A stretch of 37,630 bases of DNA from a virus, in IMG/VR virus record IMGVR_UViG_3300030099_005390, positions 1 through 37,630 of that record. One strand, given 5' to 3'. Shown piece after piece: positions 4,495 to 21,196 of this stretch. A program made the position numbers and the translations under genes. Within the stretch, counting starts at the first letter, position 1. The number at the start of each line of letters is the position of its first letter. A model generated the notes under the pieces. The model was given only the letters and a program-made list of their open reading frames with translations, searched no databases and was not told the origin of the DNA.

Positions 4495-4541
4495 TATATT
4501 TCAATTTTAATGTGGGGCGCTGCGCGGCGCTGGGGAAAATC

Positions 4542-5936
4542 ATGAATGAGCTAACCCGCTATGTATCAGATAGCTTGAGCGAGCTTACACCTTCATCCGG
4601 GAGTGACCCGGTACTGGCTAGGCTTTTGATTGAGGTTTTAGAACGCAAGGGAGAAGGCTTTAAAACCGTCAGCACTGACGGAAGCTTCTACCTTTTCACA
4701 GGGATTCACTGGGAGCGTGTAACGCACGAGGTTCTCAAAAGCATGGCCTTGGAGCTGGATGGGCTATGGCTACCGGGGGAGAAGCCCAAGCGCCTCATGG
4801 TCAATCTGAAGAAGGCTGAATCCATAGCCAAGACTATGCTCCTGGTTCATGAGATTCGAAAAGAGAAACTCTTCGAGGATGCCCCTGCTGGGGTAGCTGC
4901 TGCTGATGGGTTCTGGACGATTGACGAATTTGGTGCCGAGATGTTTGAGCACTCGCCGGATAACCTTTGCACTTGGTCCTACGATTTTGAGATCAACCCG
5001 CAGGTCAAGCCAGTCAAGTGGCTTCAGTTTCTTGATTCTCTTTGGAGGGATGACGAGGATAAGCAGTCCAAGATTGACGCAGCGCAGGAGTGGCTAGGCG
5101 CTTGCTTGATCGGCAAGGCTACGGATTACAGTCGTGCCCTCTTGTGCCTCGGCTCAGGTGGGAACGGCAAGAGCTTATTTATGAAGTGCGCCGAGCTTCT
5201 CTTCAACATTGAGCAGGTCGCAAGTGCGAGCCCGAAGCGCTGGGATCATGAGTATTATGTCAGCACCCTGATAAATGCCCGTTTGAATCTTTGCGCCGAG
5301 CTGCCGGAATATAAGGCACTGGAAGCCAGCGACATGTTTAAGTCTGTTATTTCTGGTGACAGATTAAGCGCACGGCAGCCCCATTGTCCGGTCTATACTT
5401 TTGTCCCTCGATGCGGCCATTTGTTCAGCGCCAACTCTTTGCCCTCAATCGGGTCGGGTGATTATTCGGATGGGTTCTTTCGGCGCTTCTTGGTCCTCTC
5501 TTTTAACCGCAGTTTTACAAATGATTATGCACTGGAGCGCCGCAGTCAGTCCGACATCATTGAGGAGATAGAGGCCGAGCGTCCCGCGATAGTGCACTGG
5601 GCGCTTGAAGGTGCTTCCAGGTTGCTTCGACGTGGTGAGTATACGCTTCCTCATTCTCATAGTGCGACAATTGTGCAATGGCACGAGGATTCGGACCCGG
5701 TTAAGGACTTCGTAAAAGCGTGCTGCACTGGGGGCGAGAGTCGGCTGGCTGATTTGTATGATGCCTTTAAAGAGTACTGCCTATCTACAGGCAGGAGGCA
5801 CGGGAGCAGCAAGGCGATGGCTAAGAGGTTGCGCCTTCATGGGCACAATTCAAAGCTGAAAACAGCCGGTACGGTGTTTGATATTCAAACCAAGCTCCGC
5901 GCCGACTGGTCAGATTGTAATTCTTCAGGCTTCTAA
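4542..5936 (+). CDS. D5/P4-type helicase (SF3 AAA+), replication protein (464 aa)
   Basis: A replicative helicase of superfamily 3, of the kind that unwinds DNA at a phage origin. In the 464-residue protein, the N-terminal 190 residues correspond to the D5_N type region. The Walker A motif GSGGNGKS lies at about 204-211, a Walker-B-like NLCAELPEY at about 250, a sensor-like FSANSLPS near 305, and the arginine pair FFRRF after it. The C-terminal 90 residues probably form a DNA-binding winged helix. The start chosen is the ATG at 4542 with GGGGAAAA upstream; the in-frame GTG at 4512 gives only a low-complexity extension. The leader box lies inside the gene, as codons 3-5 (ELT). The Prim-Pol it would work with is encoded separately at 8934. 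Confidence 0.88.
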   Translation: MNELTRYVSDSLSELTPSSGSDPVLARLLIEVLERKGEGFKTVSTDGSFYLFTGIHWERVTHEVLKSMALELDGLWLPGEKPKRLMVNLKKAESIAKTMLLVHEIRKEKLFEDAPAGVAAADGFWTIDEFGAEMFEHSPDNLCTWSYDFEINPQVKPVKWLQFLDSLWRDDEDKQSKIDAAQEWLGACLIGKATDYSRALLCLGSGGNGKSLFMKCAELLFNIEQVASASPKRWDHEYYVSTLINARLNLCAELPEYKALEASDMFKSVISGDRLSARQPHCPVYTFVPRCGHLFSANSLPSIGSGDYSDGFFRRFLVLSFNRSFTNDYALERRSQSDIIEEIEAERPAIVHWALEGASRLLRRGEYTLPHSHSATIVQWHEDSDPVKDFVKACCTGGESRLADLYDAFKEYCLSTGRRHGSSKAMAKRLRLHGHNSKLKTAGTVFDIQTKLRADWSDCNSSGF

Positions 5937-12459: not shown

Positions 12460-14615
12460 AAACCTCCCACGACACGAAGGCCGCTTGAATATAAAAGTTT
12501 GATTTCATTCGCCGATAATGCCCGTTTATAAATTCTTGGATAAGCAACAGCACCGCTCCATTTTGCGCCACCGTCCTGCCCACCTATCCACAAAGCTGCG
12601 GTTGAAGGGCTAGTTTGAGTTCGCGCACTAATATCGACCCCACTGGCTCCCGCAGCTCCATCAGTAAACTGGTCTGCTGTAGTCCACTCGTCTCCGTCAT
12701 CATTAACTCTCAAAACAAAAGCATAATGGTGCCAGTTGTTATCAGATAAAGTCCCGGTCCCAACGTCAGTATTGCCTACTGTCCCGTCACCAAAATTAAA
12801 CTGAATACCATCGCTCACGTCATCCCTGATGTTGAGATACATGCGGCTAGCAGATGAATTAACTTCCTTACTCATCATCGAAGTTGATATACCGTTACCC
12901 AGGCAAGTAGATTTAGCCCATACTGAAATCGTATAGCCGTCAGTGATAGTAGGGTTAAGGTCAGCGTCATTGGCGACCTGCACGTACGAATAACCGTCAA
13001 GATTGATTACGGCATTATCCAAACGCTTCTCTTCAGTGTTACCGAATAACGTTTTTCCCGCTGTAGTACCCTCCGGTAAGACTGATAAGACAGGGCTACC
13101 CGTAGAAGACCCATCGTTATTAAAAGCAGTTAAGTCTTGAATAGTGTGAAGATTGTTAAGCTTCCACCACCCCTTCAAGCTGCTGCTAACATCGTAATTC
13201 CCAGAATCGGACAAGAGATCAAAACCTTGCACGCCTGAGTTATATATCGCCGCCACAGCGTCAGCATCTAACACGGTTTTCCACATGGCAACTTCTGAAA
13301 TGTAGCCATCCCAACAACGATTGGGGGTGTCATTGTTCCCAATAATTTTTGCTGCTGAATCGGCTGGGGTGGTTCCAACTGGAGTCTGTTGCTCTGTTAT
13401 GGCCGTCGCGCTTCCGTTGATGTAAATAACAGGGTCATTCGATACCGATGATGCGTCGTAGGCAAACACAATATGCTGCCAAGTGCCATAAGTAATAACC
13501 TGATTGTCGGTTATCCATTCACCAGAAGTTGTGCCGTGGTATGTTTTAAATAAAATCTTTGCGGTTCCCGAGGAATCATTTTGAAGATATACGGTATAGC
13601 CGCCGGTTCCGGTATAAACCAAGTAGGCGACAACCTCATGTCCAATCGACATTGCTTGAGCCCAGAAAGCCAGGGTTCCTCCACTACTAAACAGACCGTT
13701 AATATCTGAATCGGCTCCAATGCTTACGTAAGAATCATCAACCGTGTAACGCCGCGAAGTGCTCGGCATTAATCCAAGCTGTGGGCAAGGCGGCTGCTCT
13801 GCTCGGTCCATACCCCCGCCAGAGGCCGACGTGTTTGTCATATAACACAAGCCGTTTACCTTGTCGGCACCAAGGTCCATGACATATAAACCATTGAGGC
13901 TATCTGCGCTTGGGTTCTGATAATCGCATAAAGGGTAATACCGTTTAAGATTTGCAGCGGCAACGCCTGTGGGCAATATCTGTTCAGGGTTATTGTAAAG
14001 CTCAAGCGCTTGGGCCGCTGTCAGCGGAGTATTGAAAACTTTGCAGCCTGCAATAGAACCGTGAAAATAATAGGAGGTCCCGCTGTCCCAACGCCCAATA
14101 GCCGTTTTACTTGTTCCCGTTGCGCTTTTGTTGGAGCCGTAGGATTCGGTCATGCTCACGCCGTTTACATAAAGCGCTATAGTGTTTCCGTCAGCCGACA
14201 CTGTACCGACAACGTGATACCACGTACCCGCTGAAACAGCTGTGGAAGTGTGGCCATCATAGCCGCCACTGAAAAGACGAGTAACATAGAACTTTGATTC
14301 GCTTTCCGATAGACCTATCGCAAATCGCCCATTAACCACACACGATTCAAGGATTGAAGTAAGCCCGCCGCTCCCAACCGTTCCAGGCTTCACCCAGGCC
14401 ACTAGCGATGACCCAGATGCAGTAGCATCTACGCCTGCACCGCAATCGATGTAATCCGCTGCACCGTCGAACAAAACAGCACGACCAGAAACCAACGTTC
14501 CGGTGTTTGAGTCTCCCGACAAATCCCGCGCATTGCCTTCACCGACAACAAAGCGAGAATCGAGCGTTAAGCTAGTCTTCGGGTAAGTTTGGCTAATGTC
14601 GGGAACTGGTATCAT
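12456..14615 (-). CDS. Triple LamG-like lectin, probable receptor-binding protein (719 aa)
   Basis: A 719-residue protein made largely of three laminin-G/concanavalin-type modules. The modules are at about 30-215 (SLVAWVKPGT, TWYHVVGTVSADGNTIALYVNG, GSIAGCKVFNTPL), about 285-460 (GTLAFWAQAM, TWQHIVFAYD, GYISEVAMWKTVL) and about 535-705 (YTISVWAKST, NWHHYAFVLRVND, AVAYPRIYKRAL). Each shows the W-H-V-x-G strand and the terminal A-x-x-IYN motif. Such modules bind glycans, so this is a likely tail appendage for host attachment. The start is the ATG at 14615 with AGAAGG upstream; a TTG 36 bases earlier overlaps the preceding gene and is less likely. Confidence 0.75.
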   Translation of the reverse strand: MIPVPDISQTYPKTSLTLDSRFVVGEGNARDLSGDSNTGTLVSGRAVLFDGAADYIDCGAGVDATASGSSLVAWVKPGTVGSGGLTSILESCVVNGRFAIGLSESESKFYVTRLFSGGYDGHTSTAVSAGTWYHVVGTVSADGNTIALYVNGVSMTESYGSNKSATGTSKTAIGRWDSGTSYYFHGSIAGCKVFNTPLTAAQALELYNNPEQILPTGVAAANLKRYYPLCDYQNPSADSLNGLYVMDLGADKVNGLCYMTNTSASGGGMDRAEQPPCPQLGLMPSTSRRYTVDDSYVSIGADSDINGLFSSGGTLAFWAQAMSIGHEVVAYLVYTGTGGYTVYLQNDSSGTAKILFKTYHGTTSGEWITDNQVITYGTWQHIVFAYDASSVSNDPVIYINGSATAITEQQTPVGTTPADSAAKIIGNNDTPNRCWDGYISEVAMWKTVLDADAVAAIYNSGVQGFDLLSDSGNYDVSSSLKGWWKLNNLHTIQDLTAFNNDGSSTGSPVLSVLPEGTTAGKTLFGNTEEKRLDNAVINLDGYSYVQVANDADLNPTITDGYTISVWAKSTCLGNGISTSMMSKEVNSSASRMYLNIRDDVSDGIQFNFGDGTVGNTDVGTGTLSDNNWHHYAFVLRVNDDGDEWTTADQFTDGAAGASGVDISARTQTSPSTAALWIGGQDGGAKWSGAVAYPRIYKRALSANEIKLLYSSGLRVVGGL

Positions 14616-14616
14616 T

Positions 14617-14838
14617 TCAAATGCCTTCTGTGGTATGGCCGCCTTCTTCAAGCTTTGCCTTTAGCGCTGCTTTAGCTGCCGCAATAATTGCCGCCGTGTC
14701 ACTAGCCTCAAACTCAATAAACTCTGACCCACTGAGGCCAACGTCTGCTACCTTAAATAAGGCAGTAGCTTGACCACCAGTAATACCATCCACTTCAGAG
14801 ATGTTGATTATAATTCCTGTTACGCTTTTTAATGCCAT
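14617..14838 (-). CDS. Unknown small virion-type protein (73 aa)
   Basis: A 73-residue protein: a beta-rich first half (TGIIINISEVDG) and an alanine-rich helix at the end (AAIIAAAKAALKAKLEEGG). Not recognised. It stands between a fibre-like gene and the LamG gene and ends two bases before the latter's ATG, so it may be a linker or chaperone for the appendage proteins. Confidence 0.6.
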   Translation of the reverse strand: MALKSVTGIIINISEVDGITGGQATALFKVADVGLSGSEFIEFEASDTAAIIAAAKAALKAKLEEGGHTTEGI

Positions 14839-16381: not shown

Positions 16382-19117
16382 TTATTCTATTGCGCGAGTT
16401 ACGGGAGTAACGCTTCTGTTCGCTATTCCCTTAAGGCCAGCCACAGCTTGGCCCTGACGAGGAGCGCCTTGCTGCCCCCCGGTATTCTTATAGACAGCCT
16501 GCATTGCCGCGCCAATGTTGGCCGGAACTGTAGGTTGCTTGTTAAGTCTAGCCCATGTTTCCCTAGCGCGGAAAGAGATTTTTTCCCCTTTTTCCACGGC
16601 TTTGCGAATATTTTCGTTGTAGCCCTCGACGTATCGACCAAACAACAAAGGGTTAGCAGCCTCAGTGTTTTTGATTGTTTCTTCGGTCGGAGGCCCCGAC
16701 ATAATTTCAGTGTGAAGCTGGGCAAGAGCGGGGCCTGCAATTGCGTTTAAAGCGCGGCGAAAGTTAGCCGCGTCAGCATCAGAAACAACCACTCGCTGCT
16801 CTCCGGTCATCGGGTCAATTGCAATTACTGAGGCTTTTTGAGCTGCCGCTTTAACAAGCTCTACTTTTTTAATTTGGTCAGCAATAATTTGCTGCTTTAG
16901 CATTGGAGCATCTTCGAGAGAGCCAAGGTTCTCTTCTAGTCTTGCAGCCAAAACAGAAGGGTCTGAAATTGTTGAAAGCGCCTCTATCTCTTTGACAGTA
17001 TCCTGCTCTGAGTCGCCCGTAAGCTTTGCACCAATTAAGCCCATCAGTGAAGCTCGCTTAGACACCTTTAGGTCTTTAAATGGTGCCGTGATGTTGCCCA
17101 TTGTGCGCTTTGTTGCATTAACCGCCCACTGGTCAATCTGCTTATTAATTTCGGACTTCATCCGATGCGCGGTAATTCTTCGCCTAACCGCATCGCCAGG
17201 AGAAGCTATGTTGCGAATGTATCGAGCTGCAAGGGCACCGGGTAAGCCACCAAAAGCATAACCGCCAACAGTGGCAAACGTTTCCGAAACAAGACCTGGT
17301 TGTTTTGACAGGCTATCAAGTTCTTTTTTTGCTTCTTGAAGATACTTAAAATCAGACCATTTTGATTTTAAGTTATTTGATGCTGTTACAATATTAGGAG
17401 CAACGTCGTCTATTTTTAGGCCGACACTTTTAGCAGCGTCCACATAAGTGCTGAACGAGCTAACATATTCATCAAACATCTGCGCTTTAGTATACAACCG
17501 ACCCTCGTCTGCATGAAGCCCGTTAATAAAGCTGTCTATCTTGCCGCTGTCGGCTATGTACTGCGGCTCCCCTGGACCGGCGGCCTCGTTTTTGGTCATA
17601 AACCTTTTGCGAAAGTTTTTCTGATGCCCGATCAACTTAGTCCATGCCGCGTTAAGCATGGCTTGGCTTTCAGCGGCTTCTTTTCCGAAAAAAGAAGCGT
17701 CTTCAAGAAACTTACGAAGCCCTTCAAACCCTGTTAAGCCACGGTCATATCTCGATTGTTTAATTTTTAACTGGTCTACAATTTTAAAAATATCTTTTGC
17801 CATCCCGCCAAGGCTTTTAGAAGATATATCAAGAGCTATATCAACGCTTCCGTCTTCTAGGATAGTAGCCGCCCCTGCGCCAATGCGGTTGTTAATCAAG
17901 TTTACAATTTCCGATTTAGCCTTTGATGCCTCATTGACCAACTTGCTGGCGGCCCCCGTTGCCATGCTGTCACCAACAGTTACTTCTTTTAGGCTTCTGA
18001 TATAGTTGTCGAGCACGTTTATGGACTCGTCAATTGTCCCAAACTCAGATGAAGGCTTAATCTTCGGAAGAATTACCCTATACTTTTCGTCTGTTACCGC
18101 CTTGGTTGTGCCGTGAACGGTGTCGAACATTTCGCCAATGTGGTTGCGGGAAGCAACAGAGAGGTCGTCTCTTGTTTGTTTAAAGCCAAGGTAATCATCT
18201 AAAAACTTAGGGTCACGAGTCTTTGACAGTAGCTCGGTATCTAGCCCTGTCATTGCTGCCGTGTATTTATCCTTAAAGTCAGCTACCTTTTTGGCCAACC
18301 CTGTAGGATATTTTGTCTTAGCTTGAGACTGAAACGCTTTGGCAACTACGGCAGCAGGGGCAGAGAAAGCAGCAGTAAGGCCGCCACCCAGTAAGGCCGA
18401 CGTAGTAATGTCGCCCATAATTTGCTCGGCGGTTTTGTCGGTACGGCCAAGAAGTTCTTCTGAGAAAGTCTCACCCGCACCGAACAAAGCACCTTCCACG
18501 CCACCGGCAGCCGCCATTCCTGGCGCTGCCCGTAGCATTTTGGAGCCCCCCACCGCGCCCTCGACGCCAAAAAGCTTGGCAACGCCTTTCTCGGCAGCGG
18601 CAGCAGACCGTGCAGCAAACCCGGCAGGAGTCTGGGCAATAGCTTTTTTAGCTGCGCCCTTAATCCCGGCCCCCGCTACCGCAGTGGTTCCCCCTGTAAA
18701 AACAGCAGGAAGCAGCATCCCGCCAATTTCACCAACACCACTAAGCACCGAGTTATACTCTTCAATGTTCTCAAGCTCTTCGTTTGAGTATGCGCCCATT
18801 TTCTCAAGGGCGACATCAGACAGGCCAAACGTTAAACCTCGGCCAGCAGCAAGCAAAAGAGCCTCTACGTTTTTACCTTCATACTCTGCTTTTTCAACTC
18901 GCTCTTGACGGTCGGAAGCTAAGTCATAAGTAGCGCCAGCTCTAACGGCCTCGCCAAAGTCTTCGCCCAAAACACTGCCATAACGACCATCAGGCAGGGC
19001 AACGTGTACTCGTTCACCTTTTGCAAAAACAAAATCACCTGACGCATAGGCTTGTTGAACTTGCGCCTCGGGGACGTCAATCCACTCCTTTTTACTGACG
19101 CTGTACATTTTAGGCAT
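16382..19117 (-). CDS. Large internal/ejection protein (911 aa)
   Basis: A 911-residue protein, the largest of the internal group and a candidate for delivery into the host with the DNA. The N-terminal 60 residues contain a short beta unit (VHVALPDGRYGSV), a pattern I associate with virion proteins of several aquatic and deltaproteobacterial phages. Residues 120-260 hold three Ala/Gly-rich hydrophobic stretches (GEIGGMLLPAVFTGGTTAVA, PGMAAAGGVEGALFGAG, TSALLGGGLTAAFSAPAAVV) able to insert in membranes. The remainder is long and helical (e.g. 440-600), ending in a disordered Gln/Gly-rich tail. It overlaps the M23 gene by eight bases. Confidence 0.7.
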   Translation of the reverse strand: MPKMYSVSKKEWIDVPEAQVQQAYASGDFVFAKGERVHVALPDGRYGSVLGEDFGEAVRAGATYDLASDRQERVEKAEYEGKNVEALLLAAGRGLTFGLSDVALEKMGAYSNEELENIEEYNSVLSGVGEIGGMLLPAVFTGGTTAVAGAGIKGAAKKAIAQTPAGFAARSAAAAEKGVAKLFGVEGAVGGSKMLRAAPGMAAAGGVEGALFGAGETFSEELLGRTDKTAEQIMGDITTSALLGGGLTAAFSAPAAVVAKAFQSQAKTKYPTGLAKKVADFKDKYTAAMTGLDTELLSKTRDPKFLDDYLGFKQTRDDLSVASRNHIGEMFDTVHGTTKAVTDEKYRVILPKIKPSSEFGTIDESINVLDNYIRSLKEVTVGDSMATGAASKLVNEASKAKSEIVNLINNRIGAGAATILEDGSVDIALDISSKSLGGMAKDIFKIVDQLKIKQSRYDRGLTGFEGLRKFLEDASFFGKEAAESQAMLNAAWTKLIGHQKNFRKRFMTKNEAAGPGEPQYIADSGKIDSFINGLHADEGRLYTKAQMFDEYVSSFSTYVDAAKSVGLKIDDVAPNIVTASNNLKSKWSDFKYLQEAKKELDSLSKQPGLVSETFATVGGYAFGGLPGALAARYIRNIASPGDAVRRRITAHRMKSEINKQIDQWAVNATKRTMGNITAPFKDLKVSKRASLMGLIGAKLTGDSEQDTVKEIEALSTISDPSVLAARLEENLGSLEDAPMLKQQIIADQIKKVELVKAAAQKASVIAIDPMTGEQRVVVSDADAANFRRALNAIAGPALAQLHTEIMSGPPTEETIKNTEAANPLLFGRYVEGYNENIRKAVEKGEKISFRARETWARLNKQPTVPANIGAAMQAVYKNTGGQQGAPRQGQAVAGLKGIANRSVTPVTRAIE

Positions 19118-19559
19118 TGTTTTGGTCCTTAAGATACTTTTCGATGTCTACCGGATTACCGTCAATCCACAGCTCTGCGTGCAAGTGATACCCAGTCCCT
19201 CTACCGGTTTTCCCTACACCGGCAACGTGATGACCTGCTTTTATTTCTTGCCCTTTTTCGACTCTCAAGCTCCCAGGCTCAAGATGCATATACTTAACCT
19301 CTCGGCCAAGCTTGTCTTTTATCTTAACAATAAAACCAGTGTTCCCGCCTTGGTTTCCGGCGTATGTTACCTCTCCGTCAAACATTGCCCTGACCGGCGT
19401 ATTTCTTGGAGCGGCATAATCAGTACCCTTGTGTTGGTCTTTTTCTGCTCCTGTCACCGGGTGCGTCCTTTCTCCAAACGGGGAACTAACTCTGAATTTT
19501 TCCCCTACGGGGTGGTTAAGGGCTAGTCTGGACTTTTTTTTTGAGCCGATTCTTCTGCA
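19110..19559 (-). CDS. M23 (LytM-type) peptidase domain, probably expressed by -1 frameshift
   Basis: Zinc endopeptidase of family M23, which cuts peptidoglycan peptides. The full family core is present only if reading starts upstream of any start codon: SSPFGERTHPVTG, then HKGTDYAAP (first ligands His, Asp), then the core strand MHLEPGSL and HLHAELWIDG with the last HxH. From the preceding in-frame stop at 19560-19562 to the GTG at 19457 this frame has no ATG, GTG or TTG. The GTG at 19457 would delete SSPFGERTHP. Between them lies a run of nine A residues (19542-19534) in the upstream gene, where a -1 slip enters this frame. The gene may thus be the second half of a 695-residue fusion. Coordinates are those of the open frame. 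Confidence 0.75.
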   Translation of the reverse strand, partial: CRRIGSKKKSRLALNHPVGEKFRVSSPFGERTHPVTGAEKDQHKGTDYAAPRNTPVRAMFDGEVTYAGNQGGNTGFIVKIKDKLGREVKYMHLEPGSLRVEKGQEIKAGHHVAGVGKTGRGTGYHLHAELWIDGNPVDIEKYLKDQNNA

Positions 19560-21196
19560 CTAACCTTATCCCTGATGCGTTTAAACTCATCAGTGTCCAT
19601 AAACGACTTTATTGACTCCTCAGTAATAACGTTGCCAGTATTGTCTTTCAGACCTTTGCTAATAGCTTGGTTATAAAGAGCGTCTTCACTCAGCAGGCCG
19701 CCCTGGGCCATAATAGCGTCGTCTAGGTTTGCTGAAATTTGACGTATTCTTGCCATGCCCTTGGCTTCACCGTCAGGCGACAAAAGAATCTTTAATGACG
19801 GCATTTGCATAAGTACGGCAGCCAAGTCTCTATCCGAGCCACGAGCACCGCTAAAAGCCTTGTTGATAGACTGAGAAGCGTTGGAAACTTGAGCGTCAAA
19901 CAGCCCTTGCAGTTGCGTCCTTGTAACATCGCCAAGGCCCAAGGCATTACCCATCTCACTCCAAACAACTTTAGCTTTGCCAAAAACACCTTCGCTTTCT
20001 TTTGCTACCGCTGTAAAAATATCTGCCAGTTTTTCAACCGAGACTCTGGCTTGCTTAAATAGCCTAAGCGTATCAGATTGTTTTCCTTGGCCCCTTAAGG
20101 CTCGGCCCTGAAACTTTTGCAGTTCTACAAGTGTCTTAACCCGCGACTCTTCCATACGGGCAATTGCCTCAAGGCCAACTTTTTTATTGGCCATGTTTGG
20201 ATATTTGTCGATAAGCGCTTGGGTTTGCATAATAGCAGAACGAAGACCCAGGACAGTTGTGGCTTTTTCAGCAGCAACTTCATTCCCAAAACGAGACAAC
20301 ATTCTAGCGTAGACGTTGTTCTTGTTTTTAAGAACGTCTTTGCGTTTCATCATTTCAGCTTTTTGAGATTCAACGTCTCTGGCAATTGCGCCTTCAATGA
20401 TTTTTAATGCAGTGTTAGGCGTGCGCCCACCGGTAAACCCTTGAGCAAACGCACCGAGAGCAATGGCAAACGCGGCAGCAACTTGGCTCCCAAGGCTTTT
20501 GTACGCTCTGTTGGGGTCAATAGAGTATGATTTTAAATCTTGCTCTGCGCTGGCAATTTCGTCTTCAACTCTCTTGGCTTCTAGTCGTTGGCGTTCCTGA
20601 AGCGCCTCAAATGCCCGGGCATCGGCTTGAGCAGCCTCTTCCCTAAGCAAGCGAATACGCTCCAAGCCTTCCATGATTTCATCTGTAGTGCTTGGCGGTT
20701 GCTCTGCCGGAGTTTCGTCTTTGCCCTCGCTCGGAGTTGTTGCCGGGATCGCTGGCTTTGGTTTTTCAGGCAAGGCAGGGGTAGGCTCAACAGCTTGCTC
20801 GGCTGTGTCGGATGTCGGCAATTCTAGCCCAAAAGCGCCCGTGCCCGTTCTTGCTTTTCGAGTCTCTGCCGCGTAGCCTGCGGCGTCCTCTGGAGACATT
20901 TGACCCGACGCGACAAGCCGGTCTAATTCATTTTGGGTTAAGCGCGTCAAGGCTTCGCCCGATGCCTCCTGTGCCTTCGTTTCCATGTCAGCAATTTCAG
21001 CCCTAGTAAAATCGAGAGGGTGGCCCTTTGCGGGGCTTTCTTCGTAAAAACGTTTTTGCGCCTTCTTTTCTTTAGACTTTGGGCGTACCGAAGTAAATTG
21101 TATGTCTCTTACCGGCCTTGGTGCCGCTTTTTTTCTCGACGCCTCTCTCAAAAGAATTTCTTGCTCTTCTTTTGATAGTCGATACGAATCAGCCAT
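19523..21196 (-). CDS. Internal virion protein (557 aa)
   Basis: A 557-residue protein, rich in Lys, Glu and Pro up to about 185 (proline-rich TPALPEKPKPAIPATTP). A helical region follows around GSQVAAAFAIALGAFAQGFTG at 230-250, then TPNTALKIIEGAIARDVESQ. I recall very similar GPNTALQII-RAI-RDI sequences in large internal proteins of aquatic and myxobacterial phages. It is probably an ejected or capsid-inner protein. AAAGGAGCGAAGAG precedes the ATG. It ends in QKKSPD just after a run of nine A residues; reading one base back there would continue into the M23 peptidase instead of stopping. Confidence 0.7.
   Translation of the reverse strand: MADSYRLSKEEQEILLREASRKKAAPRPVRDIQFTSVRPKSKEKKAQKRFYEESPAKGHPLDFTRAEIADMETKAQEASGEALTRLTQNELDRLVASGQMSPEDAAGYAAETRKARTGTGAFGLELPTSDTAEQAVEPTPALPEKPKPAIPATTPSEGKDETPAEQPPSTTDEIMEGLERIRLLREEAAQADARAFEALQERQRLEAKRVEDEIASAEQDLKSYSIDPNRAYKSLGSQVAAAFAIALGAFAQGFTGGRTPNTALKIIEGAIARDVESQKAEMMKRKDVLKNKNNVYARMLSRFGNEVAAEKATTVLGLRSAIMQTQALIDKYPNMANKKVGLEAIARMEESRVKTLVELQKFQGRALRGQGKQSDTLRLFKQARVSVEKLADIFTAVAKESEGVFGKAKVVWSEMGNALGLGDVTRTQLQGLFDAQVSNASQSINKAFSGARGSDRDLAAVLMQMPSLKILLSPDGEAKGMARIRQISANLDDAIMAQGGLLSEDALYNQAISKGLKDNTGNVITEESIKSFMDTDEFKRIRDKVSAEESAQKKSPD
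19534..19542 (-). promoter_or_regulatory. Slippery A9 run, candidate -1 frameshift site
   Basis: On the coding (-) strand the run is CAA AAA AAA AGT in the 557-residue frame, and TCA AAA AAA AAG in the peptidase frame. It contains both A-AAA-AAA and A-AAA-AAG, the classic bacterial slippery heptamers. Ten bases downstream lies a CCC...GGG element able to form small hairpins, including CCCC-GTA-GGGG. An alternative is one missing base in the run: with ten A residues the two genes would be a single frame. Confidence 0.6.

Follow-up and report, generated by a model that had tools for sequence, protein, structure and literature searches.

Runs of A residues as putative slippage slots joining a candidate ejection protein to peptidoglycan enzymes in uncultured podovirus-like phages

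Introduction

Extension of virion proteins by frameshift is known from several phages: Ig-like C-terminal domains are added in this way to head and tail proteins, as described for the T3 capsid, Lactobacillus phage A2 and the SU10 head protein (PMC5009743, PMC4281155). Wall-cutting activity is also found on ejected proteins, since internal virion proteins of the T7 gp16 type carry an N-terminal lytic transglycosylase (PMC4283147), and in Alteromonas phage vB_AspP-H4/4 (Foturvirus) an endolysin and an internal virion protein, genes 39/40, are connected by a putative -1 frameshift (PMC5658483; MF278336). A run of nine A residues (A9) in Thermus thermophilus dnaX is the site of transcriptional slippage (PMC1088944). 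Here we examine a locus in the IMG/VR virus record IMGVR_UViG_3300030099_005390 (37,630 bases; this whole stretch is called the window), in which the gene of a 557-residue putative internal virion protein ends in an A9 run and overlaps, in the -1 frame, a reading frame for an M23 peptidase.

The locus is similar to the Ig-like extensions, which different phages use independently, in that a second form of a virion protein would receive an additional C-terminal domain from the -1 frame, but there the domain is Ig-like and not an enzyme, and the protein that it extends belongs to the capsid or tail. With T7 gp16 it shares wall-cutting activity on a putatively ejected internal protein and a place in the gene order corresponding to the gp15/gp16 border; in T7, however, the domain is in frame, exclusively of the SLT type and carried by the following gene, while in the window it would be appended to the preceding gene through slippage. 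Phage H4/4 likewise combines a peptidoglycan hydrolase, an internal virion protein and a putative -1 frameshift, and its endolysin frame (L123, MF278336, 4353-4838) ends in GTAAAAAAGTAG, that is A AAA AAG and a stop, as in the relatives L085 and L073 described below. The order is nevertheless reversed, with the hydrolase first and the large protein past the slip, and the H4/4 proteins, which come from an unrelated phage, gave no match to the profile of the window family. Thermus dnaX shares with the window the A9 run, stops of the other frames close behind it and two products from one gene, but its unslipped reading gives the long product (as in the relatives L035 and L129) and that of the window the short one. 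In the literature searched, which comprised papers free of subscription, no report was found of a frameshift that adds M23, VanY or SLT to an ejection protein, nor of a single slip slot serving three types of enzyme. Domains added C-terminally by frameshift are already known, and an exchangeable peptidoglycan hydrolase would be a variant of that kind.

Results

All coordinates are window positions, and the gene, the A9 run and the M23 frame are all on the minus strand (Table 1). The 557-residue protein ends in ..SAQKKSPD*, read CAA AAA AAA AGT CCA GAC TAG, and the overlap of the two frames contains an in-phase heptamer of the X XXY YYZ kind, A AAA AAA. A -1 slip after K554 would yield a joint product of 554+141 = 695 residues. 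This had been proposed in an earlier note made from the letters of the sequence, and the nine-A run with AAA AAA in frame, a peptidase frame open upstream only to 19559 and a 695-residue product with an M23 domain all agree with our analysis. The note had also stated that no ATG, GTG or TTG precedes the motif SSPFGERTHP, which is correct, but it overlooked a GTG just past the motif and ahead of the Pfam M23 core, with the zinc ligands kept downstream. The A9 is the sole run of nine A or T in the window; first-order composition predicts 0.8-0.9 such runs per strand, so that by itself it is unremarkable. It is its phase, position and conservation, not its mere presence, that are remarkable.

Both zinc-ligand motifs of the peptidase, HxxxD and HxH, are present as QHKGTD and YHLHAE (P0002), the ligands are invariant in six of six aligned sequences, and the nearest solved chains to the domain are bacterial M23 endopeptidases.

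Table 1. Positions of the slippage locus and of other features in the window
Feature	Position	Strand	Basis or remark
0-frame gene, 557 amino acids, putative internal virion (DNA-ejection) protein	19523..21196	-	open reading frame; homologues in about 30 related loci
A9 slip run	19534..19542	-	exact A9 in window, L002, L003, L004, L025
In-phase heptamer A AAA AAA	19535..19541	-	
0-frame stop TAG	19523..19525	-	9 nucleotides past A9; GTCCAGAC between run and stop
M23 frame in -1	open from 19559, stop at 19110	-	
-1 segment gained after predicted slip, M23 peptidase	19110..19535	-	141 amino acids and stop
Junction of predicted 695-residue product			QKKKSRLALNHP region
Peptidase_M23 domain (PF01551)	19146..19436	-	Pfam E 3.9e-25
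GTG, sole candidate separate start ahead of M23 core	19455..19457	-	
Possible stem GACUAGC/GUUAGUU	19484..19528	-	starts 6 nucleotides past heptamer; no better than shuffles, not claimed as stimulator
Next gene, 911 amino acids	16382..19117	-	comes after the enzyme cassette; in relatives lacking a cassette, directly behind the homologous protein
Separate endolysin candidate, Peptidase_M15_3	10895..11317	-	

Searches with the capsid profile and with neighbouring genes gave about 100 related loci (numbered with L), about 30 of which contain a recognisable homologue of the 557-residue protein. Five contigs from different metagenomes, the window, L002, L003, L004 and L025, have the identical A9 and the M23 frame in -1, together with a 0-frame TAG close behind the run, which answers positively the question posed in the earlier note, whether relatives keep the A run with a -1 frame. 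The identity of the 557-residue protein between the window and L002, L003 and L004 is 67-76%. Nonsynonymous divergence (dN) in the M23 frame of A9 members is 0.02-0.26, compared with synonymous divergence (dS) from 0.1 to above 2; for the window against L002 and L025 dS is near saturation while dN is 0.22 and 0.15. The proportion of nonsynonymous differences is below that of synonymous ones (pN < pS) also in the stretch of the -1 frame ahead of the GTG. The -1 frame, its part upstream of the GTG included, is under purifying selection as protein. In L035 and L129 the run at the joint is A10 and both parts share a single open frame (698 and 683 codons, respectively), so that sister phages encode the joined polypeptide in the normal way, as one gene. 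Among relatives that are nearly identical at residues 165-400 of the 557-residue protein, residues 1-160 diverge strongly, the N-terminal part being variable and possibly exchanged. The genomes are mosaic: the capsids of L004 and L018 are 99% identical to that of the window, and the 557-residue proteins just 67%.

The arrangement extends to other enzymes. In L085, L073, L113 and L075 the homologue ends GGA AAA AAG TAA (or TAT TAG), with A AAA AAG at the stop or one codon ahead of it, and a different peptidoglycan enzyme is encoded in the -1 frame: VanY in L085 (E 4.8e-11), SLT in L073, L113 and L075 (E 1.3e-10, 4.4e-8). That other enzymes occupy this slot across the family had escaped the earlier note. 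An in-phase A AAA AAR was found in the last codons of all nine genes with a -1 enzyme and in none of the 21 homologues without one (Fisher 7e-8, uncorrected for kinship, the sequences not being phylogenetically independent). All seven M23 members have A9 or A10; in those with VanY or SLT the run is no longer than A6. About 20 other homologues have no enzyme behind them, and in most the next gene starts at once; since these relatives join the next gene directly, the A run marks the boundary of a cassette. In the tree the A9 members with M23 group in a single clade and the enzyme state is scattered, with two enzyme-less members, L036 and L119, placed as sister to the A10 pair and among the SLT members, respectively. 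Gain, loss and exchange of the enzyme look alike in the present sample. One relative without a fused enzyme has an M23 domain in a separate 452-residue gene further downstream (L132 7275-8633, on the contig of L044).

Some matches proved not to belong here. The 20-mer of the joint found in L012, L013 and L016 lies inside one ordinary open frame of an unrelated phage and is a chance match, M23 matches in L007 and L130 stand in unrelated contexts, and the M23 of Pontimonas phiPsal1 is an ordinary lysis-region gene. Among isolate phages no match was obtained to the 557-residue protein or its DNA, nor to the capsids of the window and L075, and a capsid search of 84,980 bacterial and archaeal genomes gave no relative.

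We also looked for signals around the slip sites. A GC-rich hairpin of 11 pairs starts 6 nucleotides past the heptamer in L073, L113 and L075 and is among the strongest 0.3-2% of local windows of 40-50 nucleotides; the single change between L073 and L113 that falls on a paired stem position (G to A opposite U) keeps the pairing. A larger hairpin is present in L085 (z about -4 over 60 nucleotides) and a strong one in L002, at the place equivalent to the possible stem of the window (z about -4.6). A conserved RNA stem sought across the A9 class was not found. Six of the nine members (L004, L025, L085, L073, L113 and L075) have Shine-Dalgarno-like sequences 8-11 nucleotides ahead of the run, seldom above background, and none was seen in the window, L002 or L003.

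The gene order of the window is terminase, SU10-type portal, capsid, SU10-type adaptor, a 1266-residue protein, two smaller proteins, the 557-residue gene and the 911-residue gene. Elsewhere, a protein of 731 residues with three Laminin_G_3 (ConA-like lectin) stretches, a candidate host-binding appendage, is encoded at 12456-14651 (-), and primase-polymerase and D5/DUF5906 primase-helicase parts are in two genes about 3 kb apart, 4512-5936 (+) and 8934-9728 (+).

Discussion

It is very probable that a recoded joint product is made at A9, by a ribosomal or a transcriptional route. The majority of readings would end at the TAG and give the 557-residue protein, while a fraction would slip by -1 and run through the M23 domain. 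Both forms would then be built into the virion, where a few copies per particle would carry the peptidoglycan endopeptidase, and these copies would breach the wall during ejection of the internal proteins. How many copies bear M23 would be set by the slip rate. In sister lineages the same slot holds VanY or SLT, which would be reached through the canonical A AAA AAG -1 site.

The explanations that dispense with recoding are much less probable. The M23 domain could be a separate gene that starts at the GTG and is translationally coupled to the upstream stop, and indeed a weak Shine-Dalgarno-like sequence (AGGA-like) lies about 9 nucleotides ahead of it, with the same position occupied by GTG in L004 and L025 and by ATG in L002; in L003, however, this codon is GTA and the first start after it lies beyond the first zinc ligands. 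The selected stretch of -1 frame ahead of the GTG, which holds the motif SSPFGERxHP, and the in-frame fusions in relatives also argue against a separate gene, which moreover leaves the conserved A run unexplained, and we regard this possibility as improbable. The note's own alternative, a missing A in the sequence, would make the true run A10 and the locus a single gene of 695 residues, as the in-frame A10 of L035 and L129 could suggest, but five contigs of different metagenomes all give A9, each with the -1 frame and a close 0-frame stop, and this alternative is very unlikely. Least probable of all, and close to negligible, is a recent frameshift that broke the gene: nothing beyond the change of frame itself speaks for it, and the arrangement persists to near-saturated dS with far lower dN. 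The joint product that the earlier note had proposed is therefore well supported by the five A9 contigs, by purifying selection on the -1 frame and by the in-frame fusions.

RNA polymerase slippage on A9 is a rival of another order, since it concerns the ribosomal step only: some mRNAs would carry ten A residues (or 7, 13 and so on) and be read straight through into the same joint protein, and its chances are in our view somewhat below even. A run of about nine or more A in the coding strand is present in the M23 members, and A9 members lack a consistent downstream stem. In every A9 and A10 member a stop ends each of the two non-enzyme frames no more than 18 nucleotides from the run while the ten-A reading is open, and A10 in L035 and L129 would simply swap the default and slipped products; these closed frames, and the fact that relatives differ in having A9 or A10, fit transcriptional slippage of the kind known from Thermus dnaX. 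On the other hand, ribosomes, too, can slip on an in-phase A AAA AAA, the strong hairpin of L002 is at the right distance, and the lineages with A AAA AAG combine a run of just A6 with hairpins of the ribosomal type. In these lineages the slip is almost surely ribosomal: A6 is a short run for polymerase slippage to be strong, A AAA AAG is the classic dnaX-type slip site, and L073, L113 and L075 have the hairpin. For the A9 members, including the window, the ribosomal and transcriptional routes are about even, with a small lean to the ribosomal one because of the sister lineages. The proposal of the earlier note is thus supported as to the joint product, and at A9 the slip may be that of the ribosome or of the RNA polymerase.

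Several observations weigh against recoding into an ejected enzyme. The members of each class are related, which reduces the independent cases to about four. The hairpins of the SLT class reach only z -1.1 to -1.6 against dinucleotide shuffles of the same GC-rich stretch, and in the window, L003, L004 and L025 shuffles fold as well as the sequence behind the run, where no stimulator is seen. Likeness of the 557-residue protein to T7 gp14, gp15 or gp16, in sequence or fold, was sought and not found, so that its structural role comes from gene order.

As to this role, the name 'internal virion protein' given in the earlier note agrees with the gene's position after the head and tail genes in the late gene order, which is that of T7-like internal virion proteins, but it finds no parallel in Pfam, PHROG or PDB profile searches, and the model, of low confidence (pLDDT 68), matched no fold. 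The protein is predicted to be almost all helix. Gene order and this helical prediction suggest an internal, ejected virion protein. A separate M15 endolysin candidate is present in the window, and a lysis role for M23 is therefore unnecessary; wall opening at entry is the best inference for the peptidase, not a demonstration.

Conclusions

From the sequences compared we consider it about an even chance that, throughout a family of uncultured podovirus-like phages, a single slippage slot closing the gene of an ejection protein serves for the exchange of wall enzymes (M23, VanY and SLT), with two slip designs, A9/A10 and A AAA AAG with a hairpin, where the type of enzyme can follow the wall chemistry of the host and the slip rate would fix how many copies in each virion are armed. 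Enzymes of this kind are overlooked or cut short by gene callers: in several members at least, the M23, VanY and SLT domains have no properly placed start of their own. The system would make it directly testable whether the dose of virion hydrolases is controlled in this way. A phage has only few enzyme copies with which it must get through the wall, and here recoding would arm a minority of the ejection proteins, with an enzyme that differs by lineage.
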